A stretch of 64,000 bases of DNA from Echinarachnius parma. Its lineage: Eukaryota; Echinodermata; Echinoidea; Clypeasteroida; Echinarachniidae. Where the stretch lies: contig JBAMJV010008069.1 in assembly GCA_037951105.1 (NCBI GenBank), forward strand, positions 22,417 to 86,416. The letters are read 5' to 3'. The translations under genes were made by a program, and so were the position numbers. This document shows, one piece after another, positions 31,971 through 62,666 of the stretch; positions within the stretch are counted from its first letter, which is position 1, and every line of letters starts with the position of its first letter. The notes beneath the pieces are model-generated. The model was given only the letters and a program-made list of their open reading frames with translations, was not told the origin of the DNA and did not search any database.

Positions 31971-32056
31971 CTTGGAGAGTAAGAGTTGTATCGGTTTCAG
32001 CACCATCACCTGCTGTTCTTGGTTCTTTTTCCATAGTCACTTTCCCCGGTTTAAGC
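31971..32056 (-). CDS. Receptor exon 17: putative C-terminal exon (two readings)
   Basis: With the strong acceptor TTCTTTTTCAG at 32056, the frame adds GLNRGK and stops at 32037-32039, ending the protein right after death domain 6. The rest of the exon is open in another frame (VTMEKEPRTAGDGAETDTTL), and reaches a good donor CAAG/GTAAAT, phase 1, at 31971. A weaker acceptor (GGGGAAAG) at 32039 would place that acidic linker in the receptor frame, in which case the gene continues further left and its end was not found. The sequence alone does not decide. Confidence 0.45.
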
Positions 32057-32478
32057 CTGAAAAAGAAATATTAAAGCCAAACAACAGTGCTGGAAAACGC
32101 CCCACACACAAACAATGACAAAATATGCCTTCATTACCTACCACGTAAAATAATATATCAAAACTACAAGCCATCTCGTGAATTCTCTATTTCCGAAATA
32201 AACAGATTATGCACATCACTAGTTTAATGATATACATTTTTCTTAAGGTTTTGTGTTGTAAAAAAGCGTCAATCATGTAATATAGATATCCCCCCCCCCC
32301 CCAACAAAAAAATAAAAAATAAATAAAAATATCCTATATCGTTTGATTAGCGGCATAAATCTGGGAGGGGTGGATCGGATTATAATACAATATACAGTTT
32401 AGCATATTTGTCGGTGGTACGTTTACCATGCACACTATTTTACGATACGTTTGTTGAACGCATACATTTTGTATTTAC

Positions 32479-32715
32479 CTTCCATTATCTCGACGGCAAG
32501 TTCGTAAAAATCGTATTTTAGGAGTTTGTCACTGAGTCTTTGGGGATTGAAACGCTTCCTTGTATGTGCCCATTGTTTGAGAACATCGAGGGGCCGAACG
32601 CCATCCTTGTACTTGACATCGAGTGCTTCGCACAGTGACCTCGTTCTATCAATATATATTGGATCGGCCAGCAGTTCCAAGACACGAGGTGAGATTTCTT
32701 TCTGTCTGTGATCGC
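32479..32715 (-). CDS. Receptor exon 16: death-fold domain 6
   Basis: The acceptor TTTTTATCCAG and donor GAAG/GTAAAT are strong and phase 1; 79 codons. This is one of the clearest death domains in the gene: RVLELLADPIYIDRTRSLC (helices 1-2), LDVKYKDGVRP, then LDVLKQWAHTRKRF with the helix-4 tryptophan at exon residue 49, then LSDKLLKYDFYELAVEIME. A C-terminal death domain is the usual place for an adaptor-binding module. Confidence 0.82.
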
Positions 32716-33145
32716 CTGGATAAAAACAAAAGTTAAATATATGAATTCAAACGATGTCACGATTTGTTAGTGTGATTTTATAACTTGGCGAGACAAAACT
32801 TTAAACATATACATTAACAGTAATGCATGTTTTCTTGTTTCCCAAAATAACTGAGCATCTATCATACAACAAAATATATCATGTAAGATTGACCAAATTC
32901 AGCACGATTGCAGGAATCAAGGACAGCTGCCCTCCATTGGTGTCTAACACATACATAGGTAATCAAATCATCTGAAATGACAACTATAACCAGTTATCCG
33001 AACGTCCGCATTTTCCCTGTTTTTCACGATAATAATATCTGATTTCTGACGCTTGTTGGTGATTGCTATAATCATTTAAAGACATTTGTTTTAAAATAAT
33101 CTATAATTCATTGACGTCGGAGGAACCATCATCAACGAGACCTAC

Positions 33146-33538
33146 CTGAAAGAATCTTCAAGGCTAGTTTCTTTTCTCCAGAACTAGCTATCACATCAAC
33201 TAACAGATGAATTTGGGCAAGCGCCGGGTCTGCAATGCTATTCTTCCATCTCAGAAGCTCCTTGGTCGCATTCTCATCAAAATACGGACGTTTTGTTTCA
33301 TCTTCTGACACTTTGCTTTCCATGGGTATGAGGTTGTTCTTTTCAAGTCCTGGAGTTTCTTTTTGTGTGTCCTCATGCGGTGCAAAGATACTTTGTGAAG
33401 CGTCATTGTCATTCTGTGCGGACTGGATGTCTGTATCGCCCCCTCGAGATTTGTCGCCGTAGATGTCGGTCAAGATCTTTCTGCCCATCTTGGCATCATC
33501 TACTGCAAGAATGTCAACGATACCCAGGCCGATTTGTT
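33146..33538 (-). CDS. Receptor exon 15: death-fold domain 5 with long polar insert
   Basis: 131 codons, donor TCAG/GTAGGT, phase 1. Two in-frame acceptors exist: at 33538 after a long pyrimidine run (CCTTCAAATTCAAAG, used here) and at 33502 (CATTCTTGCAG). The start, GLGIVDILAVDDAKMGRK, may be the first helices. A hydrophilic stretch of about 60 residues follows (rich in Asp, Glu, Ser, Thr), and the end, ELLRWKNSIADPALAQI plus LVDVIASSGEKKLALKI, matches helices 4-6 of a death domain including the tryptophan. The insert is longer than in typical death domains, so this may instead be a linker plus a partial domain. Confidence 0.7.
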
Positions 33539-33925
33539 CTTTGAATTTGAAGGGAAAAAAACATACATATAGTATTACTTCGTTTATATAATTTTACCAT
33601 CTGAGTGGTACAATTTGTAGTCTTCTTCTCAAAGAATAGACTCATAGATACTACTCAAGCTTGAACGATGTGTGCTACATAATTTCACACTGCTCGCATG
33701 TTAATTTTAGTTAAATTATGATTTAAATGTAATGTGCAATTCAGCTTAGGCTATATCTAGAAGTGAACAGGATAAATGTTGACTGGAATCTATTGATAAG
33801 TGTGGAATTGTGATCTTTCTCATACTATTTATTCTAAGTTATAATTAAGCTATTTAAAGGTATCTTTAACAATATTTTGGTGTGACATATGAAGGCAACA
33901 CTATAATATACAATACTAATTGAAC

Positions 33926-34230
33926 ATAAAGGGAGCAAGTAAGATTGTCAACATCCGCACACTTGGAACTATAACGGTTCCAACGTTCTGTTTCGTAATA
34001 AAGATATGTATGATTGTAGTGTTGAGATTATGTTTGAGGAGAATTACAACTGTGTACAAAGTCAGTGAAATGAGTTAGTGAATATCACTTTGCATTTCTG
34101 CTCATTGCTCTGTAAGTTAACATAATCATCAAAAAATGTCCACATCACTTATTGGACACATCAGATCACAAGAATACACACTTCATCAACACTTAGTTTT
34201 GGCACATGCCAACAAAGTAAGATCCCTTAA
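33926..34230. mobile_element. Family B-like TTAA element
   Basis: Left end ATAAAGGGAGCAAGTAAGAT, right end CCAACAAAGTAAGATCCCTT then TTAA. The interior resembles 21.2-21.4 kb (CATTTCTGCTCATTGCTC against CATTTCCGCTCACTACTC). Confidence 0.6.
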
Positions 34231-34350
34231 ATTTGATAACATATACAGGGTGGCCCCCAAAAAACGGAACGGGGCACTTCCCAAATTATAGTAACAAATG
34301 TATTGTGTCCATCGGATAGGGTGTCTTTTCAAATGAACAACGATACCAAG

Positions 34351-34669
34351 AACAGTGATTTTGGTCTTGTAGTACTTGTTTTAGGGCGCTGTGAGTGACA
34401 CCATGTCAGGTTCTCTTTTTTGTCAAGTTTTACCGAGCCAGTGCTTGATAGATCGCACGTACCGCCTTTCATATCGTTCAACGAGGCGCACCATTGTTAG
34501 TGTTCACTCAGCCGTGTGCCGAGAGAATGGGCGTGTTCGTTGAATGGTATTACGGGCAGGTGTGAATTTTAACTGGCATTGACTAGGTACAAATTGACAA
34601 AAATAGGCACCTGACATGGTCTCACTCACAGCGTCCTAAAACAAAAACTACACGACCAAAATTACTGTG
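34351..34669. repeat. Palindrome near the left end of the foldback element
   Basis: AACAGTGATTTTGGTCTTGT and TTAGGGCGCTGTGAGTGACA pair with CTCACTCACAGCGTCCTAA and ACGACCAAAATTACTGTGG on the other side, with a non-palindromic centre of about 150 bases. Confidence 0.75.
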
Positions 34670-34834
34670 GAAAAGACTTTGAAATGGACATAAATATGTT
34701 GGTACTTTATTTTTAGTGGGGGCTCTTAGGTCATGGGGTGTGCACTTCTGGAGAAAAGCATGAATTTTGGCACACAGATAGTTTAGACCTTCCTCTTCAA
34801 GAAATTTGATGGAAGCAATTTTGCACGGCCCATT

Positions 34835-35520
34835 CTTGGCCGCCATCTTGAATTTCAAAATGGCCGCCATCTGGCACCTGTTTTCATCAATATCTCAGCA
34901 ACTAAAACAGCTAGAGAGTTATTTTCAGTGGCTATACCCACATAATGGGGCCAACGAATCACCTGAATCGAATATCAAGACTTCAAGTGGCAGCCATCTT
35001 GATTTTCAAAATGGCCGCCATCTGGCACCTGTTTTCATCAATATCTAAGCAACTAAAACAGCTAAAGAGTTATTTTTAGTGGCTATACCCACATAATGGG
35101 GGCCAACGAATCACCTGAATAGAATATCAAGACTTAAAATGGCAGCCATCTTGAATTTCAAAATGGCCGCCATCTTGAATTTTAAGATGGCCCTCATGGG
35201 AAGCCTACATTTAACTCCATCTCAGAAACTAAAGCAATTACGGAGTTCATTTCAACTGATATGCCTATCTGTTTGTGGTCAACTTACAACAAACAATTTA
35301 CCAATAGATGGAAGCAATTATGCACTTCCCATTTTAACCGCCATCTTGAATTTCAAAATGGCTGCCATCTGAAACCCTATTTTCTCCAATATTTAAAAAA
35401 CTAAAACAGCTGGAGAGTCTATTTCAGCCGGGTACACTCACATTTTATGGGTCAACGAATCACCTGGATCGTCTTTATAAGCTTCAAATAGTAGCCATCT
35501 TGAATTTCAAGATGGCTGCC
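34835..35520. repeat. Left arm: repeated GCCGCCATCTTGAATTTCAA units
   Basis: At least five self-complementary cores like GCCATCTTGAATTTCAAAAT followed by GGC(C/T)GCCAT recur near 34842, 34993, 35145, 35340 and 35493, spaced about 150-200 bases. They are separated by a shared segment (CAATATCTCAGCAACTAAAA... CACATAATGGGG). Each half-core contains GCCGCCATCTTG-like sequence, the known vertebrate YY1-site consensus. Confidence 0.8.
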
Positions 35521-36470
35521 ACGAGTAGCCTATTCAATTATGTATCTCAGAATAAAATCAGTCAGTGCAATTCGATGGGTATGCCAATCTTGGGTTGGAA
35601 GCAATTGAGCAATGTTGCTGATATATATTGATATAAATATAATCTGAACAAAACAGAAGTCTACTTGACCGTTCGATTGATTCAACAAAGTTATTGGGTA
35701 TGAGGTAGTTCAAAAGAGAATCGATCCTACCTTTTGAAAAGCAGTAACATTCATTCGAGAATTATTTGCAAATGTTTCAGTCCCAGCTAATGAAAACTAA
35801 CTAAATGGAAAAATTTTGAACATTTCGTTGACCATACAAATGTTCACTTCCTAATATCAACAGCCTTCGTCAGCTGTGCATGACCTGACTGTTGACCTTT
35901 CTTACAAAATGATACATTTTCTGAACGTAGATGTCATCAGGTACAGCAGTTTGTTTCGCGCACTGTCTCTGTTCAGTGTGGGTTGAAATACCAGGATGTA
36001 TACATGCAGATATCTTCCTTCACCCTTTTTGTATTGTGCCACATTTCCGAAATGCAGACCTTTTGCCAGTCCGACCTGATGGTCGGGAGACTCAATGTGG
36101 CCTGTTTCGAGACACTCCAGAGGGACGAATTGGCGTCGGTGTTCCAAATATCTGGTCTTGGGAGACTGCTACATTTCTTTCACTTATGATGTATTGCATA
36201 GGACTGTTGTTTGATTCCTTGCAGCCAAATGGCTAGTAGTCCACCCTTGGTTATGGAATTACAATGTATATACTACGCCCCACAATTATTTTTGATGTTG
36301 TCTTTAGGCGGTACTAAGATTTGGTGTTTTGTTCTTGTCGGTTTAAGATACACCCTAATGCCCGATTAAATAGAAATTTTGTTAATTGCATCTGAGACTT
36401 CTAATATCAGGTCGGGTGTCATTTGGAGCATTGTGTGTTCCTCTCAGTGGGGTGATCCGTCTATAGCTTT

Positions 36471-37035
36471 TTAAAGGACAATGAAATCCAGACAAATTGT
36501 TGTATGCACTATAAGACACTACATATAATGAATATTCTCTGAAAATTTAAGCACAATCGGTCAAGAAATAAGAAAACTATGGCTCATTGAAAAGAGCCAT
36601 GTATTTCTTCGAGTGACTCAAATTGGCAACGCACTCTGGCAAAGTTGTGGACAACTCCCCATACATTTTGTACACACAATTTCAGTTTTGTTCAATTTTC
36701 TCAAAATTTATGTTTACCCTTCGTTCGAGTTCAACATATATTTTGTAGAATGCTTTTATACATAACATATCATGAGTTGGGGGAATGGAAAAATGTGACG
36801 ATGAAGAAAACTGTAAAAATTTGAACATTTGTGTACAAAACATATGGGGAGTTGTCCACACACTTATCAGAGTGCGTTGCCAATTTGAGTTCCCCATAGG
36901 AATAAATGGACATCTTCAAAGAGCCGTAGTTTTCTTGTTTCTTACCCGATTATGCTCTAATTTTCAGAGATTATTCTTCTTAATCTCTTCAAGACTATGA
37001 AAGCAACATTTTGCTTGGGTTTCATTGCCCTTTAA
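36471..37035. mobile_element. Family I TTAA element within the foldback centre
   Basis: Ends TTAAAGGACAATGAAATCC and GGTTTCATTGCCCTTTAA. A nested inverted repeat (ATTGGCAACGCACTCTG against CAGAGTGCGTTGCCAAT) spans 36622-36890. Confidence 0.75.
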
Positions 37036-37732
37036 CCCTAAAAAGACTGGGCTATTTTGAACCTTTAAAAGACTGGAGGGGAGGCTAAAAGGGCCCCCCC
37101 CCCCCCCCTAAGATCTCGGCAACCGAAACTCCGATCGACTCCAAGTTTGGCATCGTGATAGATGTCCATAAGGTCTACAATATTGCGTAGTTAAACAAAA
37201 AAATTAATTAGAATATGCTAATTAGAGCTAATTAATTATGCCAAAATGGTATTTTTTTGTATTTTTTTTTACTTTTCTCGGCAATCGAAACTCCAATCGA
37301 CTCCAAATTTGGCATGGTGTTAGATGTCCATAAGCCATACTATATTGCATAGTTAAATTTTTTGTTTGAATTATAATATGCTAATTAGAGCTAATTAATT
37401 ATGCGAAAATTGCATTTTTTGGTTGTATTTTTTGCATTTTTTAAATATTTGTTACATATTTTTTAGATGGAGTAAAATATTAACCATTATTCAACTATTT
37501 GTAGCGCAAAATTAAATGATTGCAGTGATCAGAATGAAAAAGGTCACGTAACTTTAGAACGGTACACCCGGTCGTCGCAAATTTTGTATCAAAAGTTGCG
37601 CAAGACCGTAAGGAAAAAGTCGTGAAGTGGCACCGTAAAATATTTAAGCGTTGCGAAGTAATCGCGAAAATAGAGGAGGGGGGGGGGGGGGGGGGGGCTA
37701 AATCAGCCCCCCTCCAGTCTTTTTATGGTTAA
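37032..37732. mobile_element. Family J TTAA element within the foldback centre
   Basis: Ends TTAACCCTAAAAAGACTGG and CCAGTCTTTTTATGGTTAA, each flanking a poly-C or poly-G tract. It contains two direct copies (about 37112 and 37276) of a roughly 150 bp unit with CGAAACTCC(G/A)ATCGACTCC. Confidence 0.8.
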
Positions 37733-38939
37733 GCCCAAATATAGTTGCAACACACATAAGAGAGACTAGTAACTGTATGTTATCATCTGGACAGCCAAGG
37801 GATTGGTGATTACAATGATGGAGCAAAGTAACAGTCACTCCTAATGTTTGTTCAAATAGGTAATTAGAGGTGAAATGAGACATTGGACAGTGTGAGTTGC
37901 TTTCCGATAAATCTTAAAGTTTAGGCTACAATCAAGTTTGATCACTATCATGACTATATGAAAGTGTCAAGGAACACTAACGACTTATCCTTCCCTTTGT
38001 TAGAGAACTAAAAGTGTACTCATGCACAAATTGTTTCTTGCGTTTGGGATGAGTGTCATCCATGTAACAATACCACCAAATTTGTGCATTCGGTGCATTG
38101 TCAATGTCTATTTTTTCAAGTGTTTCATTTACTAATTTTATAGGATGGGAGTGAGAGGGAATACTATTGCTGCTTCATGGATTTGTTGGTAAAAGATCCA
38201 TTGTAGCCAATGTATGTAGACCCTGTATGCGTACATGTTCTTTCAGGGGTTAGAAACCTGGCTCACAGACAAACTGGTCCAGACCTATCCTATCATATCT
38301 CCTATTGTGTAACAGACATGTCACCATGTAGCAAACTCTCGATTAAGCGTAGAATTATCCATCGAGACTGACTTTACGTACATTACCTACCTTAGTTCCC
38401 ATAGACAAATCAACACTTGAGGACACAATTATCTAGAGTATATATAGGACCAGCATGTCTGAATTATATTGTCCAACTCCTGGAAGAATGTCTACGCTGC
38501 GCAAACCGATACTTTGACTATACAGTGACACTTTTAGCGAGCAGATTCATATAGCGGTATGACACTCAACACCAAATTCAAGAAATAATTAGCACAGGAG
38601 TTTATTAATCACTTGAACTCCATTTATCCGGACTTAGCATTCCCTATTGAGGAGAAGGAGGGCATGTGGGCACTTAATCATGGTAGCTTGGAAGATTTAT
38701 CGGAGAGAAATTCACGCAGTTGGTTTATATAATATGTTCACCTCCAGTCACCCATGTGAACATTTGAAGTGATCCATACTTTGTCCATACCGATCCATAT
38801 CAATCCCTTGACTCTCTCCACTTGTGGCTAATCTAATTGGGCTTTTAAAATGGACCAAAGCCAAGATAAACCCACACTATTAACCCCTTGCTTAAGTAAA
38901 GGATAAAGGAACTGAGTGTGCTATACGTACAACATATAT

Positions 38940-40330
38940 GGGAATGTCAAAATTTCGAAGCGAAAACAGATTTCAGGGGGTGACCATTTTGAAATTGAAG
39001 ATGGAGGCAAAAATGGCACTTGCTAAATTGCTTCCAACCACAGTGGGTGCATCTGACTTAGGTCTTTCAAATGTACTCCATGTTATTTATTGCGAACATC
39101 AGACTGCATACCCACAGAACGCACTCTGTTGCTTTGTTAGTCTCGCAGATTTGAATCAAATCTATATAGACTTATCATGGTGGCCATATCGAACTTCAAG
39201 ATGGCCCAACCATTTCAAGTCTTTTAAGTCAATCCAGGTGATCTGTTGACCCCCAAAATGTGTTTAAAGCCACTAAAAAGAACTCTCCGGCCATTTTAGT
39301 TTCTGAAATACACGCAAAATAGGTTGCAGATGTCAGCCATAATAAAATTCATGATGGTGGCAAAAATGGGTCTTGCTTATTTGCTTTCAACCTCATGTTT
39401 CTTTCAAAGACAGATAAGTCTTTGGCCCCAACCAAAAGGCATAGCAACTAGAAAGAACTTTGCACCGTTTTTAGTTTCTGATATAAAGAGTTAAATATGC
39501 TAATCCCCATGGCGGCTATCTTGAAATTCAAGATGGATGCCAATTGACGCTTTTGAGGTGGATTCAGCCGATTCGTTGGACCCAATTAAATGGCTATAGC
39601 TGCTAAAATAATGCTTTAGCTGTTTTAGTTTCTGAGATAAAGGAGATAAATTGGAAGTGCATAGTTGCTTCGAACCATCTATTGGTAAATTGTTGCATAT
39701 TGACCACAAACAGGCCATCTTGAAATTCAAGATGGCTGCCATGTTAAGTCTTGATACGCATTTGATTCAGGTGATTCGTTGGCCCCCATTATGTGGGTAT
39801 AGCCACTGAAAATAACCCTCTAGCTGTTTTAGTTGCTGAGATATTGATGAAAACAGGTTCCAGATGGCGGCCATTTTGAAATTCAAAATGGCTGCCACTT
39901 GAAGTCTTGAAAGGTGATTCACGGGATTCGTTGGCCCCAATAATGTGGGTATAGCTGCTAAAATTAACTTTATATCTGCTTTAGTTTCGGAGATATTGAT
40001 GAAACAGGTGCCAGACGGCGGCCATTTTGAAATTCAAGATGGCTGCCACTTGAAGTCTTGAAAGGTGATTCATGGGATTCGTTGGCCCCCAGAATGTGGG
40101 TATAGCTGCTAAAATTAACTTTCTATCTGCTTTAGTTTCGGAGATATTGATGAAAACAGGTGCCAGACGGCGGCCATTTTGAAATTCAAGATGGCGGCCA
40201 AGAATGGGATGTGCAAAATTGCTTCCATCAAATTTCTTGAAGAGGAAGGTCTAAACTATCTGTGTGCCAAAATTCATGCTTTTCTCCAGAAGTGCACACT
40301 TGGTCCCATATATTGACTTAAGAGCCCCCA
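38940..40330. repeat. Right arm of the foldback element with the same units inverted
   Basis: GAAATTCAAGATGGCTGCCA-type cores recur near 39522, 39722, 39876, 40029 and 40182, separated by ATTATGTGGGTATAGCCACT and TTTTAGTTGCTGAGATATTG, the complement of the left-arm spacer. Confidence 0.8.
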
Positions 40331-40398
40331 CTATTTGGGAAGTGCCCCGTTCCGTTTTGTTTTTTTTGGGCCACCCTGTATAAAGAAATGGTATTTAC

Positions 40399-40695
40399 CG
40401 AAATACAGAAGTCTTGCAACAGCCAAAAAGTTACATTTGTGTAGCAATACGCTCATATCTTTTCTCTTATTGACCGTTGATGCCTTTCTGACGCAATCTC
40501 GTACAAGTCCAAAGGTCCCCTTGTCACAGGCAGCATGGGTGTATGATACGCAGTATTCGGAAAAGCTTCCCTCATGACATAATGCGGAAGCAAAGGAAAA
40601 CATGTCATTCATGAAGACTCGGAAAGCTACTTCGACCAGTTCTACCTCGTAGACATCGGATCTGGTATTATATTCCATGAGCGGCATCAAACATT
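40399..40695 (-). CDS. Receptor exon 14: death-fold domain 4
   Basis: The acceptor TTTGTTTGTAG and donor TTCG/GTAAAT are phase 1; 99 codons. The pattern resembles a diverged death domain: VELVEVAFRVFMNDMFSFAS (helices 1-2), then GLVRDCVRKASTVNKRKDM and LLHKCNFLAVARLLYF for helices 4-6. The core tryptophan of helix 4 is absent (VRDCVRKA where xxxWxxx is usual), and the domain is unusually Cys-rich. Its donor lies only 12 bases from the end of a 6.1 kb foldback transposon. Confidence 0.7.
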
Positions 40696-41255
40696 CTACA
40701 AACAAAATCATAGGACATATAGAACATGATGAAAACTTATATTCCCCCTTTGTATTTACATAATTAGCAGACGGTATGATTATGGCTATGCCGATTAGAA
40801 TCTTAATATAAGGAAACAAAAGTTATCTGGTTAAAACAGAAGATATAAAATAGGAGCTATCTAGATGAAGCAAAGCTCTAGTCTAGCAAAAGATCGGAAT
40901 AAGAATAACTGTTTTATACGTATGATAATTTGCTTATATGAACAACTTTCCTATGGCCTATTTTTTCTTGTATTATATATTTTTGGTTGTTGTTTTTGTT
41001 AATTTTATTTAGTCTATGTAATTTATGCATTTTGTCAATTGTATGTATGCTTAATGTGTTTGAATACAGCACGCATATGTAAAACCCCTTTTCAACTTAT
41101 GTTGCCTACCCTGTTTTACAAACAAAAACAAAATAAATAATTTGACATAACACCCCATTGGTTATCATCCGTCCAATATGTTTCGCAGTATCCAACTGGC
41201 CTACATATGTGTTAAGCAATAAATAGAAAGTACTTTTTTCAAGATTCATATTTAC

Positions 41256-41435
41256 CTAAATTCCGATCATGTATCATCAATATTTCTCGTATTTTTCTTC
41301 GTGGATTCTTAACAACGACGACATAACTTCCATCTGTAGCCTTTTTGATGACCTTTTCGTGAAGAAGTAGATTCATTGCTTTCTCACCTGCGATTCGTTC
41401 TATCCGTGCCAGCTCATCTGATGTAATGTCATTTA
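41256..41435 (-). CDS. Receptor exon 13: unassigned alpha/beta segment
   Basis: The donor is TTTAG/GTAAAT, phase 1. Two acceptors of the same phase are possible: at 41435 (CTGCGAAG, used here) and at 41417 (ACATCAG). The 60 codons read as two helices (SDELARIERIAGEKAMNLL, HEKVIKKATDG) followed by a strand pair (SYVVVVKNPRRK) and a helix (IREILMIHDRNL). I do not recognise a death fold in it. A winged-helix-like or degenerate domain is possible but unsupported. It lies directly before death-fold domain 4. Confidence 0.6.
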
Positions 41436-42810: not shown

Positions 42811-42898
42811 CCGGCAACTTCGTTGAGAAGGCATACAAAACCTGCCAGAACAGGTCTGAATACAATTCATACAATTCATTGAATCCACAATTACTTAC

Positions 42899-44394: not shown

Positions 44395-44838
44395 CCAATA
44401 GACCGCTTCTGTGATGTATGCAAATAATATGCGTATGACGTATAGACTCCCCGTTGGCAAGCTTAACAATAGTAACTAGGTCCGGCAGGCTAAGTATGCC
44501 GGAGCTTGCCGGACCTAGTTACTATTGTTAAACTTACCAACGTGGAGTATTACGTCATACGCATATTATTTTCTTATACAGGGTGGCCCAGAAATAACGG
44601 AACGGGGTACTTTCCGTTATAAAGAAACACAGAGACTAGGTTTACTTGATAGATAATCTTTTAACAAGAAATTTGATATCAACAACAGTAATGTTTTGTT
44701 TGGGTGTTCGGAATAACGAATTTCTTTTTAAAAGATTATCTATCCAGTGAACATATTATGTACGTTTCTTCATAATGGCAAATACCCTGTTCCGTTATTT
44801 CTGGGCCACCCTGTATACTTACAGAAACGGTCTATTCG
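44395..44838. mobile_element. Palindromic MITE interrupted by a later insertion
   Basis: Left arm CCAATAGACCGCTTCTGTGA through AATATGCGTATGACG and GGTCCGGCAGGC pairs with the complement on the right. The right arm is continuous only if 44577-44815 and one TA are removed. Without the insert it is about 203 bases. Confidence 0.8.
44577..44815. mobile_element. 239-bp element with the same ends as the 6.1-kb foldback
   Basis: TACAGGGTGGCCCAGAAATA-ACGGAACGGGGTA forms near-perfect terminal repeats; TA flanks both sides. The inner AAAAGATTATCTATC motifs also pair. A deletion derivative or miniature relative of the foldback family. Confidence 0.85.
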
Positions 44839-47586: not shown

Positions 47587-47862
47587 TTGCAACGTTCGCT
47601 CTGTCTAATTCCTTTGCCATTTCCATCAGTCTGCATCTGATCTCGTAGCTGCTGCACTCTTTCTGTTTCTGATGGGAGCACCAGTCCTCGATCATATTAT
47701 CCGTTTGGAACATGATTGCAAGATCTTCCTTGTTTCGCTCTGCGATTTCGTCATGTTTCAGGTTGAGTAGGCCTCCCAGTTTCGTGCAGTGGGGTAAACT
47801 AACTGCCATAGCTATTTTTCTAAAGTTAACCTTCGTCAGTTCTTTCTTGTTTTTCTCATGGA
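47587..47862 (-). CDS. Receptor exon 9: death-fold domain 3
   Basis: The acceptor is TTATGTTCAG and the donor GTATGT, phase 1, 92 codons. Death-domain features in order: VNFRKIAMAVSL (helix 1), LGGLLNLKHDEIAE (helices 2-3), MIEDWCSHQKQKE with the core tryptophan at exon residue 61, and RLMEMAKELDRANVA (helices 5-6). The helix 5-6 region is more polar than in domains 1 and 2. Confidence 0.78.
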
Positions 47863-48779: not shown

Positions 48780-49049
48780 TTCTATAGTATGTCATAGCTA
48801 GAACGTTGAAGCCAGCTTGTTCAAGTGCACGACAAAGTTCGATTTCTTGGTTGATATATGTCTTCGCTTCTCTCCAGGATTTCATTCGCTCAAAGATGCT
48901 GGTCTCTTTTCCCTCAGAATCCTGGCACTTGGCTGTTCCGAGTTTTCCAAGGAAGATCTGTATTTGTCCCTTTGTCCCTGAATAACTCACTGAGTCAGCA
49001 ACGTGCTTCAGATCGACTTCACTGATTTGCGTTTTCTCTTTTCTATAAT
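48780..49049 (-). CDS. Receptor exon 8: death-fold domain 2
   Basis: The acceptor CCTTCTCAG and donor GTAAGT are both strong and phase 1; 90 codons. The frame shows a death-domain pattern: VDLKHVADSVSYSG (helix 1), QIFLGKLG, then IFERMKSWREAKTY with the conserved tryptophan at exon residue 59, then LCRALEQAGFNVLAMTYY for helices 5-6. It is probably a duplicate of its neighbours, since each death domain here is one symmetric exon. Confidence 0.8.
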
Positions 49050-50067: not shown

Positions 50068-50385
50068 CTTCCAGTCTCGCTGCCTCTACCTCCAGACCTT
50101 TGTCTTGCAATGCCTTGCCTAGTTCGCTCCCTTGATACCTCTCAGACCCATTTGTGTGTACTTTCCAGATGCACAGTTCACGAAATAGTTCCTGACGCCT
50201 TAATGCAATAACCATGTCATCCGCTGACGCCTGCTCATTACCACGGAGTTTTTCCACAGCCTGCGTAAGCTTAGAATAGTCTGTGTCGTTGTTAAGATCC
50301 AAGAACTTCCAAATTTCGATGAAAGTGATAGGTCCGGGGGTTAGGAGTGGTGGAGCAAGACACTCCATCGGTACGCCTTGATAGT
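50068..50385 (-). CDS. Receptor exon 7: death-fold domain 1
   Basis: The acceptor is CCTATACAG; the donor is GAAG/GTGTGC, phase 1 at both ends, 106 codons. After a short proline-rich lead the exon shows a death-domain pattern: FIEIWKFLDL, DYSKLTQAVEKLRG, then ELCIWKVHTNG with the conserved helix-4 tryptophan near exon residue 74, then ELGKALQDKGLEVEAARLEG matching helices 5-6. The length suits one complete death domain in one exon. It is the first cytoplasmic domain after the juxtamembrane exon. The assignment is by pattern, not by search. Confidence 0.75.
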
Positions 50386-51963: not shown

Positions 51964-52005
51964 ATTTTTCCACTTTGTGTAGTCTCCAACGTCGTACACA
52001 CTTCC
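51964..52005 (-). CDS. Receptor exon 6: basic juxtamembrane segment
   Basis: The exon is 42 bases, with acceptor ATAATTTCAG and donor GTACGT, and joins in phase 1 to both neighbours. It encodes WKCVRRWRLHKVEK, seven basic residues in fourteen, the expected stop-transfer sequence right after the membrane exon. Its tiny size makes the call depend on frame continuity and composition rather than on homology. Confidence 0.6.
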
Positions 52006-52971: not shown

Positions 52972-53561
52972 GGTCACATATTCGAAACCGGGAATGCAAT
53001 ACAAATTAGTTATTCTTGTCGTAATTGTATTGCTTTGTTTTTCTGTTGGGGGGGGGGGGGGGGCTTTTAGTATAACAAATTAACTCTAGGCGTATTAAAT
53101 GCAAGCCGCTCTAAAGCCTCCGTCACAAATCCAAGAATTCAAGAATGTATAGATCGACAGAGAATCGCCTAGTAATCCACCAGGAAGTCGAGCGTATTTT
53201 CTTTTGAAATCTACCCTGTCACATATTGGACAGGTTTCGGGAGAACCCTATTAACATCAGTGATCAGAAATCCGGCGCCCGTCAGTAGTCGGCCGACCCT
53301 TAATAATCGCGGCAGAGCCCGAAGTGATCGAGCAGACACCGGCCGTATTCATGGCGAAGATGCCCTTTTGAGCTTGCAGAGTCGGGCGGGCTCCTTTTTG
53401 GATATGTGACGGCCCCTTACGAACTAGGGACACTGCCCATGTACCCTGTTATTTTACAAATTAATACCGTGCAGTATTCCGGAAAAATGCGCCTGATTTA
53501 CATTCCTATACAAATTTAAGGGCAAACTCAGATTAAGTTCGGAAAATTCAGCTTATTTTAG

Positions 53562-54228
53562 TTTAAATGGACTGTCCCCCTTTTGCGAGCCATATTTCAA
53601 AAGTTGCGAGGTTATTGTCTTATATGAAAGAAAATGTAATTTAACAGCATGCCTGAAAAAATTAGAGCTTGAAATCTCTTTTTCGTGGATTTATAGACCT
53701 CAAAATAATAAAACGACTGGCAGCGTTTAATTGTGCATTATAGGAGTATTCACCTGGTGCGAAATTTCGCACACGGATTCCACGGAGTACCACGTTGCTG
53801 CGCGTGACCCCTACGTGACCCGCGCACAGACCCGCACTACGTGACCCGCGCACAGATCAAACAAAGGTATTCAAACAAAGGTAGATTAATCAAAGGTAAG
53901 CGAAATATCCAAACCTCGCTAAAACTGACTACATGTAATTGTATATTCTTCATTTTCGACACCTTTTCCCGTGACATACCTTTACAAATGTCGGCTTCAC
54001 AATGCTTTTTCAAGAATAAGTATAATATTGTTGTAATATTATGCTAAATCAGTTAAACGCCTTTATTGACCTAAATATAGGCTGGTGGAGGGACGCATTC
54101 GTTTTTCATTCGTAGAATCCAAATTACATGGCTTTTCGATCTTGATTTTTGTATGTGTGTTATATTCATCCCCTTCCGTCTACTGGAAACCGTTCAGACG
54201 ATTTGTAAAAGGCGGACAGTCCCTTTAA
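53562..54228. mobile_element. Family G TTAA element, second copy, inverted
   Basis: Left end TTAAATGGACTGTCCCCCTT, right end AGGCGGACAGTCCCTTTAA. The interior matches 29.2-29.9 kb in reverse (AAACGACTGGCAGCGTTTAA against ACGCGCTGTGTCGTTTTA), with an added short direct repeat near 53820-53856 (CACTACGTGACCCGCGCACA). It ends 35 bases before the receptor membrane exon. Confidence 0.85.
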
Positions 54229-54263
54229 GACTAGAACGAACATCTAGATTAAACGTTACTTAC

Positions 54264-54308
54264 ACGCTAGGCAAATCAGACCAACCAGAATAAAGATAGG
54301 CACGATAA
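54264..54308 (-). CDS. Receptor exon 5: transmembrane segment
   Basis: This 45-base exon has a strong acceptor (TTTTCTTTGCAG) and a perfect GTAAGT donor, phase 1 at both ends. It encodes VIVPIFILVGLICLA. With the preceding GIIAV from exon 4 it makes a single hydrophobic helix of about 20 residues. It follows the Ig stalk and precedes a basic exon, so the protein is predicted as type I. Because the exon is symmetric, skipping it would give a soluble form without changing frame. Confidence 0.7.
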
Positions 54309-54584
54309 CTGCAAAGAAAATGTCATTAATTAAATACATGTTGATAGAAATAGGTAATGATCAATAAGCACGAGTTTGGCGGCCATTTATGGGTCTTCAG
54401 CCGAGGATAAATATACATCATTTTGAACTTGTTTCATTAGGTATAATTATGGTCTTGTTGCCCCTTCACGAATTTGCTTCAATTTGTTTCAAATCTCTCA
54501 TTCGTTGTGTAATACCAACTCTCATCTTGGGTTGTATTTCGATTATATTTGTATTATATAATTTACATAAAAGTTAAGCAAATG

Positions 54585-55146
54585 TTAAAGTGATCCCTGT
54601 AAAGTGTCAGATATTGCACAAAATGATATTTGAGACTTCAATCCTATATCAATATCATTTTAAAATACAATTGAAAGATTTGTGAAAGTTTGAAAGAAAA
54701 CGACCACTGTTTACCAAGTGAAAAAAAAACGAATATTGAGTTCATATTTTATAACCGTATACTGATGGCCTGCCGTAGATTTGTCGCAGTAATAATCGTC
54801 CGTTTGACGATATCCGCAACCGGCGTGTATACAGACGGTACAGAATTTGCGCGCGCTCGGCTCAACAGTCGGGTACATCGATCGCGTGGCGCGCCGTCCG
54901 GACGTGTTCAGCTACGGCAATTGTACTTTTTACAAAAAGCGTTGGGCAACGCTTTTGAGATGATGATTTTTAAATGATAATTATCTTCATACTAAAGTGG
55001 CATTTAAAACAATCTAACCCTATTTTATTCTTCTCTAACCCTATTTTATTCTTCTCTTACCATAAGCTAAACAACACGGCAAAAGAGAAACGAGGAAGCT
55101 CCAAGTAATTTTCGTGGAGTTAGACAGTTTACTCGGATCACTTTAA
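54585..55146. mobile_element. Family C TTAA element, 562 bp
   Basis: Ends TTAAAGTGATCCCTGTAAAG and GTTTACTCGGATCACTTTAA. It has a GC-rich core around GCGCGCTCGGCTCAACAGTC and a duplicated CTAACCCTATTTTATTCTTC. Located between receptor exons 4 and 5. Confidence 0.8.
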
Positions 55147-55183
55147 CATTTCGGGGTTCATACGTTTGACTTTTTCCTCATAC

Positions 55184-55606
55184 CTTTAACGGCAATTATG
55201 CCTTTGTTCGATGATTCTGGTGGCATGGAAACTGCCTCTGTTGTCGTTGTCAATGCTGGTGTACTTATTCCCAAAGGAGCAGTAACACTCACAGACTTAG
55301 TTGATACTCCAACTCGTGTGGCAGCTAAAGTCGCCTGGCACACAAAGTCATGCACGCCAGGGCACTGCTGGAACGTAATAGTTGCACTGACGTCCTCCGT
55401 ATGACCGCCAGGATGTGGCGACCTAACGATAGGTTCATGGTTTATAGTGCAGCCTGGTGGTGAGGTCCATGCAAGCGAGACAAGCCCCACCGATGCGCCT
55501 TCCACTCTACATGTAAGATTTGCAGTCATTTCTTCCAGTAGGTCAATGGAGCAATCTTGACTGCTGTCGCATTGGTCTACAGTAGGGTATGGATCTACAG
55601 GTGGCA
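55184..55606 (-). CDS. Receptor exon 4: Ig domain 2 and Thr/Ser-rich stalk
   Basis: The acceptor follows a T-run (TTTTTTTATAG) and the donor is AAAG/GTATGA; both are phase 1 and the exon is 141 codons. After a proline-rich lead (VPPVDPYPTVDQC) it shows an Ig-like pattern: NLTCRVEG, then LAWTSPPGC, then HDFVCQATLAATRVG, with ITF before strand F. Extra cysteines suggest a second disulfide, as in C2-type or CD80-like domains. The last 35 residues are rich in Thr, Ser and Pro (STPALTTTTEAVSMPPESS), typical of an O-glycosylated stalk before a membrane helix. NLT is one potential N-glycosylation site. Confidence 0.75.
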
Positions 55607-56220
55607 CTATAAAAAAAGACATATATAGGGAATATGGGATTACATGTAACAAACGGGAACCCGCTCAATCTTCGAATTATAAGTTCTTATCGTCGATGAT
55701 TAATAATCACAACTCATTTCATATGTACACAGTGTACATAAACCTAACTTTGAGTATTTCAGCTATTAAATGTTATAAATCATTTATTTAGTCGACATCG
55801 CACGATGCAATTGATACGTGAATTATATACAATTGGAAAAAAAAAATTGCAGTGATCAAAGCAACATGGGCATAATGTGACGAGGCGAGGTGAGTCCGAC
55901 CAGACAATCCCCGCATGCGAGCTGTAGGTAAGTGCCTGCCCTGCTAATTTTGGTTGAGGCAGACGAATCTCGCTCGGCGAATCATGTCCGCCACAACGAG
56001 AAGCGCTGGCGCGCTGCATCTCATTCGGCTCCAGCAGTCTCCCCTTTTTGTACAAGGGGGTAGAATGAGCGGTCTTCCCTTACTTGTCATGACCAGTGGC
56101 GTAGACAGGTTCTTACACCTGGGGGATGATTTGCCGTTCACTGGAATGAGACCAATTTGTTCGCGGCCGAGACCACCACAATTGTTCGAGACCGAGGAAA
56201 TTGCTTGAAAGTCCTCTCAG

Positions 56221-56222
<2 letters not shown>

Positions 56223-56257
<35 letters not shown>

Positions 56258-56332
56258 GTCCGTCGCCAAATTTTTTCCCGGCCGAGACCGTCTAATTTTG
56301 TTCGAGACCGAAAGTGGGGGGGGGGGGGGGGG
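56223..56332. repeat. Long poly-G tracts
   Basis: Thirty-four consecutive G at 56223-56256 and seventeen at 56316-56332, each next to TTCGAGACCGA-type repeats. The open frames here are glycine or proline runs and not genes. Confidence 0.9.
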
Positions 56333-56642
56333 CTCGTCAAATGTTTTTCGCAGCCAAGATCATTCATTACGAAGGTCGAGACAAGGCGCGCCGGAAGCAG
56401 TTTTGGATTGGGGGGGAAAAAACCTAAGGGGGCTCACGATTTTGTGTGTGTATGGGCTCATGCGCGCCAACTTTGAGCCAGATGTGAGAGTGAGACATTG
56501 CGTGAGAGCGAAGTGACTGAGCAGGGGGGAGGGTGTGGGAGGGGGGTGTCCCCCTCCCACGGTATGGAGGTTTTGCATTTTTGGACTTTAAATTGTGCAA
56601 TATGGTGCTTAATTACCTAGATATGAAATTCGGACTAAACAT

Positions 56643-57372
56643 TTAAAGGTAAACTTGAGTATTGGTAATTTCCATAGTGCCCCCCAAAACTAATTGTAAC
56701 GGATTCGGTTGATTTCAATTCAATATGAAAGATCATCGAAAAAAAATGGGAAATAATAATAATTCCCATTAAAATGCTCTCGTTGTTGTGAAATTTGCTT
56801 TCAAAAATTATATAAAAGTGGTTGACGCCCGGGTATCACTTTTTAGAGAACGCTAGTGCGAGTCGCTAGCGATCTAGGTCCTCCTGATAGAAAACTGAAA
56901 CTAAATATTTGTGTGCACGCTAATTGTGCTTAAAACTATACATATGAAACGGTACTTACCAGCAATTCACTCTCCAATATGTGATCCAACTTTCGGGTGG
57001 ATTAAGATTATGTTTTTTCCCTCCATTCCGCAAAAAATCAGTGATATATGCGCCTCATGGACTAATTCTATCCGTGTGTTAGCGCGAACGAAAGGCGATC
57101 GAACAGGGATTGCGGTACATACTATACACGTACTATCACCGTGCACTGCACTATTATATACAGTCCCGTATTACGACCTAGAGCGCTAGTGCTTCGCGTA
57201 GAGTTAATTTGACACTTCGAGTTGTAACGGCTCTTTTTGAATGATAACAGGGGTTTTACTTTGTCGTTTGTAATTGTGTATACTTTTCAAGCATGGTGAA
57301 GTAATAACTAATAGTTGGTACCGTAATCGTGCAGATTTTGGTTACTAAACCAATACTCAACTTTATCTTTAA
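56643..57372. mobile_element. Family A-derived element with foreign centre
   Basis: Left end TTAAAGGTAAACTTGAGTAT, right end ACCAATACTCAACTTTATCT then TTAA. The last 160 bases match the inverted family A left part (GTAACGGCTCTTTTTGAATG). The middle is unrelated and GC-richer. Confidence 0.7.
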
Positions 57373-57511
57373 TGTATTTGAAAAAGCGTGTTATGATTAG
57401 ATCGACCTGGAATTTTAAATATATTTTCACGAAGAAAACAAATAATTTACACACTAATAAATATGAACCCCAACGCACACACAAATATTGTATTTATATT
57501 TTATAGTCATA

Positions 57512-58269
57512 GGCCGGTATTCTGAAGTCGTGTCTAAGTCCTGTTTAACTAAACAGTTGTTTAAGTCCTGTCTAAGTCCTGTCTTTTTTCGTATTCTGAA
57601 GTCGTGATTAAGTCAAGTTAAACACGTAGTCCTGTCTAAGTCCTGTTTAACTTTAGACGACTGCGCGGGGTTGTTTAAGTGCTGTTTAAGAGCGCGATTC
57701 TGCTGCTTTTCAACCTACAGCACACTCTCCTGTACCCTACCGGGAAGTTGCGGCGGAGGATAACTGTACGTGCACCCTCAACATTTCAAATAAGAATTGC
57801 AGGATTTGTTCACGTGTTGCCCTATCATTTGTTTCGATAATATCAACTAACCTTATCATCTGGTGACGTCTTGTAAATTCCTTGGTCCAAAGTGAAATAT
57901 CCAGCTTGTAAGAGACTTTTTTCTGCTTGAATTTTAATTTTTTATACGATTGCGATCAGCGTTACGGTATCGGCGATATATGCAATCGATAGCGTGAATT
58001 GCGCATGCGCAATCTGCTTATCGTCTGCTGCGGCTATCTAGCGCAAATGCGTAATAGCGCGAAAACGTCACAAATGCCTACAGAGCATGCGCGAAAGTCC
58101 TGTTTAAAGTTAAATAAGTGTTTAGTTAGTCACGCCTTAGACACGACTTAAGAATACGAAATTTAGTTAGACAGGGCTTAGACACGACCTCGTGTTTAAG
58201 TCCTGTCTAACTAAACAGTTGTTTAACTTTAGTCATGACTAAGTTAGACACGACTTCATAATACCGGCC
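57512..58269. mobile_element. Inverted-repeat element built of TAAGTCCTGT motifs, 758 bp
   Basis: Ends GGCCGGTATTCTGAAGTCGT and ACGACTTCATAATACCGGCC. Sub-terminal GTCTAAGTCCTGTTTAACTA-like motifs repeat many times on both arms. The middle has no frame. Confidence 0.8.
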
Positions 58270-58799
58270 ATAGTGTCAATAGTGTCATACCTACACAGTT
58301 CCTACATACACCATATGCCACATTATGTATGATCCAACATTATGTATATAGCCAAGAATGAGTCCGGAGTGGGCGAAGCAACCGAGGGCTGGGGCAGAGC
58401 CACATAGGGAGGGTTTGGGAGGGGGTATCCCCCTCGCAAGATTTTGCATTTATATACTTGAAATGGTGCAATTTTGTGCACGTTACGGTCACACGAGCAG
58501 CCAGAGCACTGGAACTGCGTGGCCCGGTACATAAAACAATACTCACCCCAGACCATACACAAGTTACACAACAAACTGAGATATTCTGTTCGCGCGCGAA
58601 GCGCGCAGCGAAAATTTATGTGGATGTATAAATTACTTTTTGAACGTGAAAATTAGTCTTAGAAAAAGTCCTTGCTCATACCATTAATTTTTTCTTTCCC
58701 ACTCGTATACAGATACACACACACACAACAAAAATATCCTTCCCTAAAACTTGGGGGGGGGGGGGGGAGGGGGATGATTGTACATGTCATCCCCCACCT

Positions 58800-59790
58800 T
58801 GTCTACGCGCCTGGTCGCGTGAGCTGTCTCCCCTCTTAATAAGGGGGTGGCGTGAGCTGTCTCCCCTTAATTGTCGTGCGTTGTAGTGATAGTGGTATAG
58901 GGGTAGCGTGAGCTGTCTTCCCTGTCTTGATAGCGTATAAAGCGGGTTGCGTGAGCTGTCTTCTTTTAATTGTCGTGCGTTGTTGTAATCGTGTATAAGT
59001 GAGTGGCTTGAGCTATCTCCCCTTAAAGTGGCCAGGCAAACTAAACGCATGTTATCTTCTATTCATCTCTATTAGTGTACACATCAACTATTTGTAAACC
59101 ATTTGACCCAAACATATTTTGTTTATTTTTAAAAATGTTAGTAATTATTTTTCTCCATATTGTGAAGCCCCCACTTCTGAAAACTTCTCCAAGAGTAGAA
59201 TTCTATTGTTGACCTGTTGTGACATCATCAGCCACTCACTACTCAGTTACAAAGAAGTTACCTTCACCCAAGCTGAGTGCCTAATCACAATAGCGTCACA
59301 CGGTTGAATAGAATACCAACTCACACACCTTCAATTTCAATAGCTGTTGCTATGTCAGAAGAAAAGCACTGTCTGAGCTATTGCATGGAGGTATGCAGGG
59401 CATGCTTTTGTGTGGATGTTCATCTTGTGTTAATCTCATGGTAGCTGATCAGTGATTGACAGATGATGTCACAACAGGTCAACAATATAATTTACTCTGG
59501 AGGGATTTTTACGAGGTGGGGCTTAGCAACATGAAGAAAAATAATTGATAAAATGTTTTAAAATATACAAAACATATTTAGGTCAAACCGTTTACAAATA
59601 TTGAATGTGTACACTAATACAGATGAACAGAAGTCAACATGCATTTGGTTTGCAGGGCCCCTTTAATTAATGTGCGTTGTATTGATCGTGTATAAGTGAG
59701 TGGCTTGAGCTGTCTCCCCCTGTCGTGATCCCGTGTATTAGGGGTAGCGTGAGCGGTTTCCCCCTAATAGATTCGTGTGATAGTGAATTA
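58800..59790. repeat. Minisatellite of GCGTGAGCTGTCTCCCC units, split by a MITE
   Basis: Units of roughly 50-60 bases with GTGAGCTGTCTCCCC, TTAATTGTCGTGCGTTGT and GTGTATAAG-GAGTGG run from 58809 to 59022, stop at a TTAA, and resume at 59667-59760 after a 640 bp inserted element. Confidence 0.8.
59023..59666. mobile_element. Family M TTAA element inside the minisatellite
   Basis: Left end TTAAAGTGGCCAGGCAAACT, right end GTTTGCAGGGCCCCTTTAA. Arms pair again through GTACACATCAACTATTTGTA and ACAAATATTGAATGTGTACA and through GACCTGTTGTGACATCATC. TTAA flanks both sides. Confidence 0.85.
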
Positions 59791-60860
59791 GGGGTTCAAG
59801 CGTTACTCTTTATGTCCCTTTTTCACAACTTATCATGGCAAACATATTTTTCAATTTTGTTCAGTGGTTGTATTCTATCTTGCCAATATGTTACTGATAA
59901 TGGATTAAATTATTGTTTTTTATCATATTTGTAACCTTAGATTTTACCCTTTTATCAACGTCTGGTTGAAACTAAACATTTTATACCATAAACCTTGAAA
60001 TATAAGGCGTTGTATGAGCGCCTTTGTAGTATGAACGCCTTTCTTTACACTTAATTTATCTTAGTTTATGCGATTTAAATTATCGTTGTTCCTGCTCATT
60101 AATTATTCATAGAGCTCCAAGGCGTGTATATTTGCTTATAAATGGGAACCTTTGTTGGTGCTCTGCGATCTCACTGACTTAAATATTTGGTCCGACTTTT
60201 ACATGAAATAAACGTTTAGCCACTAGAAACGATGTAGGTGAATATTGCCTTGCAACATCATACAGACTTGAATTGTGGAACTATGCAATAATCTGTGTAC
60301 AAATCAAACGTAATGATAATTTCTCAATCAGTTAATAAAACACAAAACATCTTCCTGACAACATAAACAAACGTTATTGCACCACCTCAAAATCGTAAAG
60401 GCACATTTCATACTCCAAATAAGATGATAATATGCCATTGACGTTTACGCAAGGCAGACTGAACATCATTCAGAACACTTGATTCTCCCAACCAAAGGCG
60501 GATACACTGTTGACAATATCAATGCATTTTGCAACATTAACTTTGCCTCATATTCATATTTACAACAAATGTCATATCAATGTAATGGGGTGAAAACAAG
60601 CATTCCAATGATACTAAATTTATGAACGGTAATATAGTAACAAGATAGATATGAACGCTCAAACTTAAATTACGGAACTTTTTGTGAGGGGTGTATTACT
60701 CATAGCATGGATAACGATACATAGTAAATTTCTTGTGAATACATCTTCGATAACTTGTACAATATGACGATACACTATATATTTTATGTCAGGCATGCAC
60801 TTCGAGGGCCATTACAGTAACGCGCTGTAACAATGATGATAAATGCAAACATATGATTAT

Positions 60861-61073
60861 CTTTGACGCTAACATTGGTGTGATTGGTGGTGAGGTAACC
60901 CCTGGAGTCCGAGACCCGACAGAAGTAGCTCCCGGCAGTCTCCGCGGTCACTTTGTGAATGACTAGGTAATAGTCATCTCTCATGTCGAATAGACCCTCA
61001 TTAGCGGGGTTAGGTATTCGTGTTGTCCCTCTGCTATACACGACCAACACTTTAGCAGGGACGAATGTTTCAC
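60861..61073 (-). CDS. Receptor exon 3: Ig domain 1, C-terminal half (3' end uncertain)
   Basis: The acceptor CTCTGCAG is followed in frame by the second half of the Ig domain, with the motif TAETAGSYFCRVSDSRG: the tyrosine-x-cysteine of strand F, near residue 110, pairing with the cysteine in exon 2. The domain should finish at VSVK, which is where I end the exon. No good GT donor of phase 1 lies there. The open frame runs on to a stop at 60784-60786, adding a short tail with a weak hydrophobic patch (MFAFIIIVTA). The exon may therefore end a short secreted isoform, use a nonconsensus donor, or carry a mutation or sequencing error at the donor. Confidence 0.6.
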
Positions 61074-61506
61074 CTGCAGAGGAAGTGACCGCAAAATATA
61101 TATGGTTTTAACATAAAGATTACGGCTCGTTTTCTCATGTTTCTAAAACTTATTGCAAAATTCATATTTAAGAATATAGGCATTTGTGTGTAGGTTATAC
61201 ATTATTTTAGTAATGATACAGGATTTGATACCATGGGGCCGATCTCAGGTAAGTCTCTTAGCTATTTTCGGTTCAAAACTTGGACATAACTTGACAGTAA
61301 AAAATGTATTTACACAGATAAGAACTGTATTTAATAACATAATGCATTGTTAAAGCAACGCTGACCATATCTACGATGATAATTTGATGACAAGGGAAGT
61401 TTAAATAAACGTCAGCCTATATTCAACATCGATATTTATTTTACCAGCTTCATATCTTGATCTATCGAAATATATAACGTTTAATTAATGAATGCACGCC
61501 GTATAC

Positions 61507-61626
61507 CTTGGCCCCACCAGACAGCGGTCGGGTCGCCCCTAAACCGGCATTGAAGATCTCCTTGACGACCAAGAAGAAGAACGGGGTTCTCATCCATGAT
61601 GACTATGTCAAATGGGATATTATTAT
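61507..61626 (-). CDS. Receptor exon 2: Ig domain 1, N-terminal half
   Basis: The acceptor is TTTCTTAG and the exon ends CAAG before GTATAC, phase 1 at both ends. It encodes 40 residues including GDLQCRFRGDPTAVWWGQ: the B-strand cysteine (about residue 45 of the joined protein) followed about ten residues later by the core tryptophan pair. This is the first half of an Ig fold; the matching cysteine is in the next exon. Splitting one Ig domain over two phase-1 exons is known in several Ig-superfamily genes. Confidence 0.7.
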
Positions 61627-62570
61627 CTAAGAAACGAAAACAAACACATATATATATTACGATAACAACATAATATCTTCAGTTTACTGTTTATTTTTTC
61701 AGTTCACAAAATAAATGTGCAATTCGTTAATATAATGTAACATAATATGGGTAACCAATACAAAATAAATACAAATGAACATTTGTTAACAGCATAATTA
61801 TGATAATTGAAGTGAAAAAGGGAGGGATCTGCTGTGAAGCAAAGCTTGTAACTTATGAAATTATGAGGTGCAATGAAGAAACAAGACAAACAACTACAAG
61901 CGTCGTTATCATCAAACACACCAGCGGTTTAGTCGTACCGTGGTTGCATGATTATTATTGTCTTGGTTCATTCAACTATGGCTCTTTATCATATCGGCGG
62001 CTTGAATCTAGAATTTTATGAGAGGGCCTTACATTTAATTGTTGGAAGATTATCGGCCTTGACGTATTTTTGTAAAAATCGCTTTTGCTTAATTTATGTC
62101 ATTCATATATTTACCTAACATAACTCAAAACGAGCAGATAATTAGACCGGATTTAACATGATCATGTTCATATTTAATTGTATAAAGGAAACCCAAACGC
62201 TGGAAAGTAAGTTTACTGTTACTGACAATTTTATAAATCATGTCACTTCTAGCTCGTTGTAATTTTCTCTTGGGTATTGACACGAATGTTTTTAGATAAC
62301 TATTCGTTGTTTTGACAAACCACAAGAGGCTGCCATGTATTTCCAACGGTACCTTCTTTCTCGCCAGCTAAGCGTGCACTTACATAAGTGGGTAACGTAA
62401 CCACTTGAGCAGACTCAACAGCATTGGATGTAGGTGCCACACTCCATGCAGATCAGTGTGAAAAAATTAACACTATGACCCGGAGCTCTGAAAACGATTA
62501 TGCTTCATTTCAGATTGAACCATAAAGTGTGGAATTTTAAAATGCGTTTAATCCACCAATTGTAACTTAC

Positions 62571-62625
62571 CACATGCAGCGAGCAACACGATGTTCATCA
62601 CAATGAGCAGAATAAACCTTGCCAT
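62571..62625 (-). CDS. Receptor exon 1: start codon and signal peptide
   Basis: The exon encodes an 18-residue hydrophobic leader, MARFILLIVMNIVLLAAC, and ends with the first base of the next codon before a GTAAGT donor at 62565-62570. The ATG lies in a good context (GCCATGG). The leader has one Arg followed by a continuous hydrophobic core, as expected of a signal peptide. A pyrimidine-AG at 62667-62670 suggests that 5' untranslated sequence in this exon begins at 62666 after an upstream noncoding exon, which I did not locate. The phase-1 end after the leader is the usual arrangement in Ig-superfamily receptors. Confidence 0.7.
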
Positions 62626-62666
62626 GGCTGTTTGCAGATCCAAAACACTCGTCAGCTTTCGAAAAA

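Follow-up and report, generated by a model that had tools for sequence, protein, structure and literature searches.

A predicted immunoglobulin receptor gene with six death-domain-like modules in its cytoplasmic tail, from the echinoid Echinarachnius parma

A 64,000-nucleotide stretch of the genome of the echinoid Echinarachnius parma (GenBank assembly GCA_037951105.1, contig JBAMJV010008069.1, positions 22,417 to 86,416; hereafter the window) carries on its minus strand, from 62.6 to 32.0 kb, what gene modelling and collinear paralogs support as one gene for an immunoglobulin (Ig) ectodomain, a single transmembrane (TM) helix and a tail of six death-fold-like exons (DD1 to DD6). We believe that this gene probably belongs to a multigene family of single-pass Ig receptors, whose parts are a signal peptide, V-set and Ig-like domains, a short stalk, the TM helix and a cytoplasmic tail in which a small further module (module X) separates two sets of three death domains and a charged end follows, and that clustered tails would seed death-fold assembly.

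Splicing the exons by hand gave a protein of 888 amino acids with no internal stops and phase 1 at every junction, running from the signal peptide through the V-set domain, the second Ig-like domain and the membrane helix to the six death-domain-like exons; the end of exon Ig1b was fixed in this model by phase, at a site without a GT. Adding module X, which was found later, brings the protein by arithmetic to ~948 amino acids. The named exons are open and their flanking splice sites are plausible, though several are weak, and the DD1 acceptor at 50385 (score -2.2) is uncertain. Candidate exons were scored with splice-site and codon tables. The class with acceptor frame 2 and donor phase 1 made up all five candidates scoring at least 30, 6 of 8 at 20 or more and 10 of 21 at 12 or more, and was absent at all five thresholds tried from the controls (the same region on the other strand, and 1-31.9 kb on either strand). 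The phase-consistent chain on the gene strand scored 210 against 36, 76 and 63 in three controls (penalty 10); this chain included exons later rejected and missed Ig1b, the TM exon and part of DD1, which were placed by hand.

The organism's own genome assembly (1.2 Gb, 14,790 contigs) was searched for relatives of the gene, and the six-exon tail proved to have two collinear paralogs, C1243 and C7757, at 45-60% identity. When 17 window exon queries were run by tblastn against 60 kb of C1243 and 40 kb of C7757, C1243 matched Ig1a, Ig1b, Ig2 and DD1-DD6 in order at 49-76% identity. The signal peptide exon matched weakly (E 0.01), its counterpart MANFTYLLLLHTILLGAC having an identical donor phase, and the TM and tail exons gave no tblastn match in the 60 kb searched. 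C7757, whose sequence starts 6.4 kb ahead of DD1, matched DD1-DD6 in order at 45-57% identity, with a partial match to the tail exon (E 0.001). Exon ends in the paralogs agree with the window in phase and fall at the same or an adjacent codon. A fourth, more diverged gene, C5121, has Ig1a, Ig1b, Ig2, DD1-DD4 (DD2 partial), module X and DD6, with DD5 read by eye in translation; its DD1, DD3, X and DD4 are 20-34% identical to those of the window. Among 31 computable exon pairs, 30 had a ratio of nonsynonymous to synonymous substitution rates (dN/dS) below 1, the sole exception being DD1 of C1243-C7757 (1.14); 11 further pairs, all involving C5121, were saturated, and DD2, DD5 and DD6 of C5121 were left out of the count. 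A scan of viral contigs found no relative.

The initial annotation had placed death-fold exons at 50.1, 48.8, 47.6, 40.4, 33.1 and 32.5 kb and joined them in one gene with a signal peptide, two Ig domains and a membrane helix. All six exons are present and open at those places on the minus strand, and in-frame splicing and the collinear paralogs agree with the single gene. The exons that it named hold up, but its list was not complete, as module X was overlooked between the 47.6 and 40.4 kb modules. Module X lies between DD3 and DD4 in the window copy, C1243, C7757 and C5121 (33-59% identity to the window copy), and it was matched in full when open segments of the window were scanned against C1243 and C7757, a scan that also recovered the known exons among the matches listed. 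No family could be assigned to module X with confidence. One of the four copies matches the DUF6293_C winged helix (E 0.0072) and the best PDB row is ScaR (E 0.088), two weak hints that module X is perhaps a winged helix. Four other candidate exons (53810-53754, 46491-46408, 45386-45315 and 43054-42899) fit in phase but were rejected, as they have no counterpart in place in C1243 or C7757; the one at 53.8 kb sits in a repeat. A missing DD exon ahead of DD5 was sought within 33.5-40.4 kb and not found.

The same exons could be those of at least two adjacent genes, one coding for an Ig membrane protein and the other or others for soluble proteins with several death domains. The Ig2-DD1 gap of C1243 is 22 kb, the TM-DD1 interval of the window holds four polyadenylation-like signals, and a methionine lies near the start of the window DD1 exon. 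Such signals, however, run at 1.4 per kb here regardless, the TM exon has a fair donor (score 3.1) from which the reading continues in phase into DD1, and the Ig part, seen in two of the three paralogous genes, keeps the Ig-then-DD order of the window in both C1243 and C5121. We therefore consider separate genes very unlikely and retain the single receptor gene.

The death fold is best supported for the C-terminal module. The best AlphaFold2 (AF2) model of DD6 has six helices and a mean confidence (predicted local distance difference test, pLDDT) of 78.4, and in structural comparison, a VIA-align run over Foldseek's list, its ten best rows are death domains, the third being UNC5H2; the modelling thus supports a six-helix death fold for DD6. 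DD3, the other module modelled, gave a confidence too low to inform on its fold, so that structure prediction speaks for one of the two and neither way for the other. In hhalign comparisons with known death domains, DD1, DD3, DD4, DD5 and DD6 gave E values, each for one comparison, of 8.5e-5 to 0.015, with reversed controls at 0.28 or above. DD2 aligned to its sibling modules DD4 (E 6e-4), DD6 (0.0034) and DD1 (0.0076). The profile comparison supports the other five modules as death domains and ties in DD2, and at the level of sequence a death-domain ancestry is supported for DD1-DD5. The death-fold calls of the initial annotation accordingly stand for DD6 by its model and for DD1, DD3, DD4 and DD5 by profile comparison, while DD2 is linked through its siblings. 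When aligned, the exon-end blocks of DD2, DD4, DD5 and DD6 are gapless, and none of 3000 shuffles scored as high. Pfam Death (PF00531, gathering cut-off 22.6 bits) was the sole match, below the cut-off, of the C5121 copies of DD1 (E 0.018, 15.6 bits) and DD3 (E 0.012, 16.1 bits), and the C5121 copy of DD2 scored 10.1 bits with the hidden Markov model (HMM; 0 of 300 shuffles). In BLOSUM comparisons of the window exons with each other, with FADD or with a consensus, most scores did not exceed those of shuffles; the exceptions were DD3 against the consensus (4/1000 shuffles), DD2-DD3 (5/300) and DD2-DD6 (9/300). DD5 appears to be a single module interrupted by a long loop, as its C5121 copy can be read without the loop. 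A weak internal self-similarity of DD5 (45/2000 shuffles) was dropped after the C5121 alignment, which suggests that the start of DD5 belongs to this module as its own first part.

Several results weigh against a receptor with six death domains encoded by an intact gene. Pfam Death, proposed earlier as a check of the exon translations, matched none of the six window exons; DD2 and DD4 of C7757 were at chance level with the HMM; and the direct match of DD2 to known death domains was weak (E 0.062, reversed 0.2). PDB sequence searches with the window exons of DD1 and DD6 and with a four-copy DD3 profile returned no death domain. It could be that death domains are confined to the C-terminal module and perhaps DD1, DD3 and DD5, and that the rest are unrelated helical spacers or scaffolds, as the individually weak module scores would allow. 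The gapless exon-end blocks, the DD2-DD4 pairing and the score of the C5121 DD2 copy speak against this division of the tail, and we regard it as unlikely.

The other adverse results concern the window copy itself. Ig1b ends there in phase 1 without a GT, which is present in all ten of the other distinct copies that were aligned as far as this point (L033 is among the ten; L031 is not aligned to the end). After DD6 the reading is out of frame, giving GLNRGK and then a stop, where C7757 and C1243 are open with related starts. Because of the missing GT and the lost frame, the window copy may be decaying or mis-assembled. The family could thus be real and this copy a decaying pseudogene in which Ig1b splicing fails and the frame is lost past DD6; the immediate in-phase stop of the 32056 exon, open in two paralogs, and the stops found in other family copies fit such decay. 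The remaining window exons, on the other hand, are free of stops and have dN/dS below 1 against the paralogs, and two small differences could be sequence errors of a draft assembly. We take decay of this copy to be a serious possibility, if a somewhat doubtful one.

Membership of the first Ig domain in the immunoglobulin superfamily is established by Pfam V-set, which is reached only when Ig1a is joined to Ig1b (27.7 bits for the whole spliced protein and 30.7 for the ectodomain, cut-off 26); Ig1b alone scored 22.6 bits, below the cut-off. The Ig2 exon had no Pfam match, and its Ig-like cysteines and tryptophan were recognised by eye. It has 13 matches in its own genome, itself included, and eight other copies without stops cover 137-139 of its 140 residues. 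Of 11 distinct other copies, most searched over only 1.5 kb, four have hydrophobic exons of acceptor frame 2 and phase 1 downstream of Ig2, and a candidate TM exon is present in C1243. The Ig2 copies L031 (C14569) and L033 (C13774) carry in-frame stops, two TGA in the former and two TGA plus two TAG in the latter, so that broken members exist beside open ones in the receptor family. A 111-nt repeat (88%) lies directly downstream of both the tail exon (31805-31915) and the Ig2 exon (55036-55146), its first copy covering the AATAAA signal at 31819.

The ectodomain and the tail appear to have had different histories in one pair of genes. Identical residues between C1243 and C5121 number 194/247 in the ectodomain and 96/319 in the tail (DD1, DD3, X and DD4), so that the two are nearest outside yet far apart inside; window and C1243 share 169/247 and 181/338, respectively. 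Gene conversion of the ectodomain, exchange of tails or differing constraint could each produce the contrast seen in this pair. In the tail, every module occupies a separate phase 1-1 exon, and modules could therefore be gained, lost or skipped in frame. We tentatively suggest, while thinking it rather doubtful, that the family consists of exchangeable cassettes in which ectodomains stay alike and tails diverge or swap through phase-1 introns, giving one ligand system with different polymerising death platforms.

Table 1. Exons of the predicted receptor gene and a repeat-bounded insertion, in window coordinates.
Feature	Position	Strand	Remarks
Exon 1, start codon and signal peptide MARFILLIVMNIVLLAAC	62571..62625	-	donor phase 1
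Ig1a, V-set Ig, first half	61507..61626	-	76% to C1243
Ig1b, V-set Ig, second half	60861..61073	-	in-phase end without GT donor; Pfam V-set when joined to Ig1a
Ig2, second Ig-like domain and Ser/Thr stalk	55184..55606	-	cysteine pattern by eye; multicopy exon
Transmembrane exon VIVPIFILVGLICLA	54264..54308	-	top hydropathy of spliced protein
DD1, death-domain-like module	50068..50385	-	5' end uncertain; paralog matches; hhalign E 0.0014
DD2, death-domain-like module	48780..49049	-	paralog matches; hhalign to DD4 E 6e-4
DD3, death-domain-like module	47587..47862	-	hhalign E 0.0019; C5121 copy matches Pfam Death (below cut-off)
Module X, ~60 amino acids	41256..41435	-	also in C1243, C7757, C5121; end read by eye
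DD4, death-domain-like module	40399..40695	-	paralog matches; hhalign E 0.005
DD5, death-domain-like module, long polar loop	33146..33538	-	hhalign E 8.5e-5
DD6, predicted death domain, C-terminal module	32479..32715	-	AF2 model and structural comparison
Tail exon	31971..32056	-	in-phase stop at 32039-32037 (GLNRGK*); two paralogs open
Repeat-bounded insertion in DD4-DD5 intron	34738..40299	.	inverted 213-nt arms, 93% complementary

The DD4-DD5 intron is large because most of it is the repeat-bounded insertion of ~5.6 kb (Table 1), which holds internal tandem units of ~151 nt with the motif AAAATGGCCGCCATCTTGAATTTC and looks like a foldback-type mobile element. A small palindromic element at 44575-44817 has 105-nt arms, 85% complementary, and begins CAGGGTGGCCC; a related end lies at ~40379. 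The idea that DD4 sits inside a transposon was dropped, as, by eye, the two CAGGGTGGCCC ends (at about 40379 and about 44578) face away from DD4. Elsewhere on the minus strand, an SLC5-type sodium/solute symporter exon lies at 17947-18357 (Pfam SSF 24.3 bits, cut-off 22.8), and 5203-5254 we presume, by resemblance, to belong to an SLC5-type symporter. The window gave no hit to Rfam and none in a tRNA scan.

In vertebrates, death-domain signalling relies mostly on receptors and adaptors that each have one death domain and are built into helices; the single death domain of Fas, TNFR1 or MyD88 seeds a helical assembly, as in Fas-FADD and the Myddosome. By analogy, ligand or cell contact would cluster the Ig ectodomains of the echinoid receptor, and the clustered multi-death-domain tails could nucleate a helical assembly of death folds, each chain contributing up to six subunits. 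With several death domains per chain, few receptors might suffice. The assembly would then recruit soluble death-domain adaptors and feed caspases or NF-kB-type signalling; module X might act either as a spacer or in binding, should it prove to be a winged helix. We infer the cell location, clustering, partners and signalling outcome in this way, and the receptor may act in cell death or innate immunity.

Among known proteins, the UNC5 netrin receptors (Ig, TSP1, TM, ZU5, UPA and death domain) likewise pair Ig domains and a TM helix with a death domain at the C-terminus, and UNC5H2 is among the best structural rows for DD6. A diverged UNC5-type receptor is nonetheless highly improbable: in the 888-residue spliced protein, which excludes module X, Pfam found no TSP1 (thrombospondin), ZU5 or UPA domain at E<=10 with filters on, and in their place the window gene has extra death modules, six against one. 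Receptors of the TNF-receptor type (Fas, TNFR1, p75NTR) have a cysteine-rich TNFR ectodomain and one module in contrast to Ig domains and six; neither the TNFR cysteine-rich domain nor the TIR domain of IL-1R/TLR-type receptors had a Pfam match in the spliced protein. The tandem CARDs of RIG-I/MDA5 and tandem DEDs of caspase-8/cFLIP resemble the tail in having more than one death-fold domain per chain, but these proteins are soluble and carry two copies of CARD or DED, not death domains. MALT1 also unites Ig domains with a death domain, yet it is a cytosolic paracaspase of DD-Ig order without a TM helix. Amphioxus and other invertebrate immune proteins have shuffled death domains and new sensor/death-fold combinations, and some Apaf-1 homologs have double death-domain repeats at the C-terminus (PMC2246300), while the excerpts consulted describe no Ig receptor with a multi-death-domain tail among such proteins (PMC2575513, PMC2246300). 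An Ig plus multi-death-domain architecture is likewise absent from the available excerpts of PMC2246300, PMC8195603, PMC9646362, PMC4346834, PMC5094078 and PMC2575513, and a six-death-domain receptor was not found among the matches listed from the open-access literature, which leaves most subscription journals outside its reach.

Taken together, Ig plus death domain, death-domain tails and tandem death folds are each known, and a receptor with six in one chain may be new. If the proposed reading is true, six death domains on one membrane receptor would be a pre-made seed and would allow a direct test of the subunit number needed for nucleation. If the cassette arrangement is also true, like ectodomains joined to unlike tails would be the reverse of the usual fast-changing recognition end in immune receptors.

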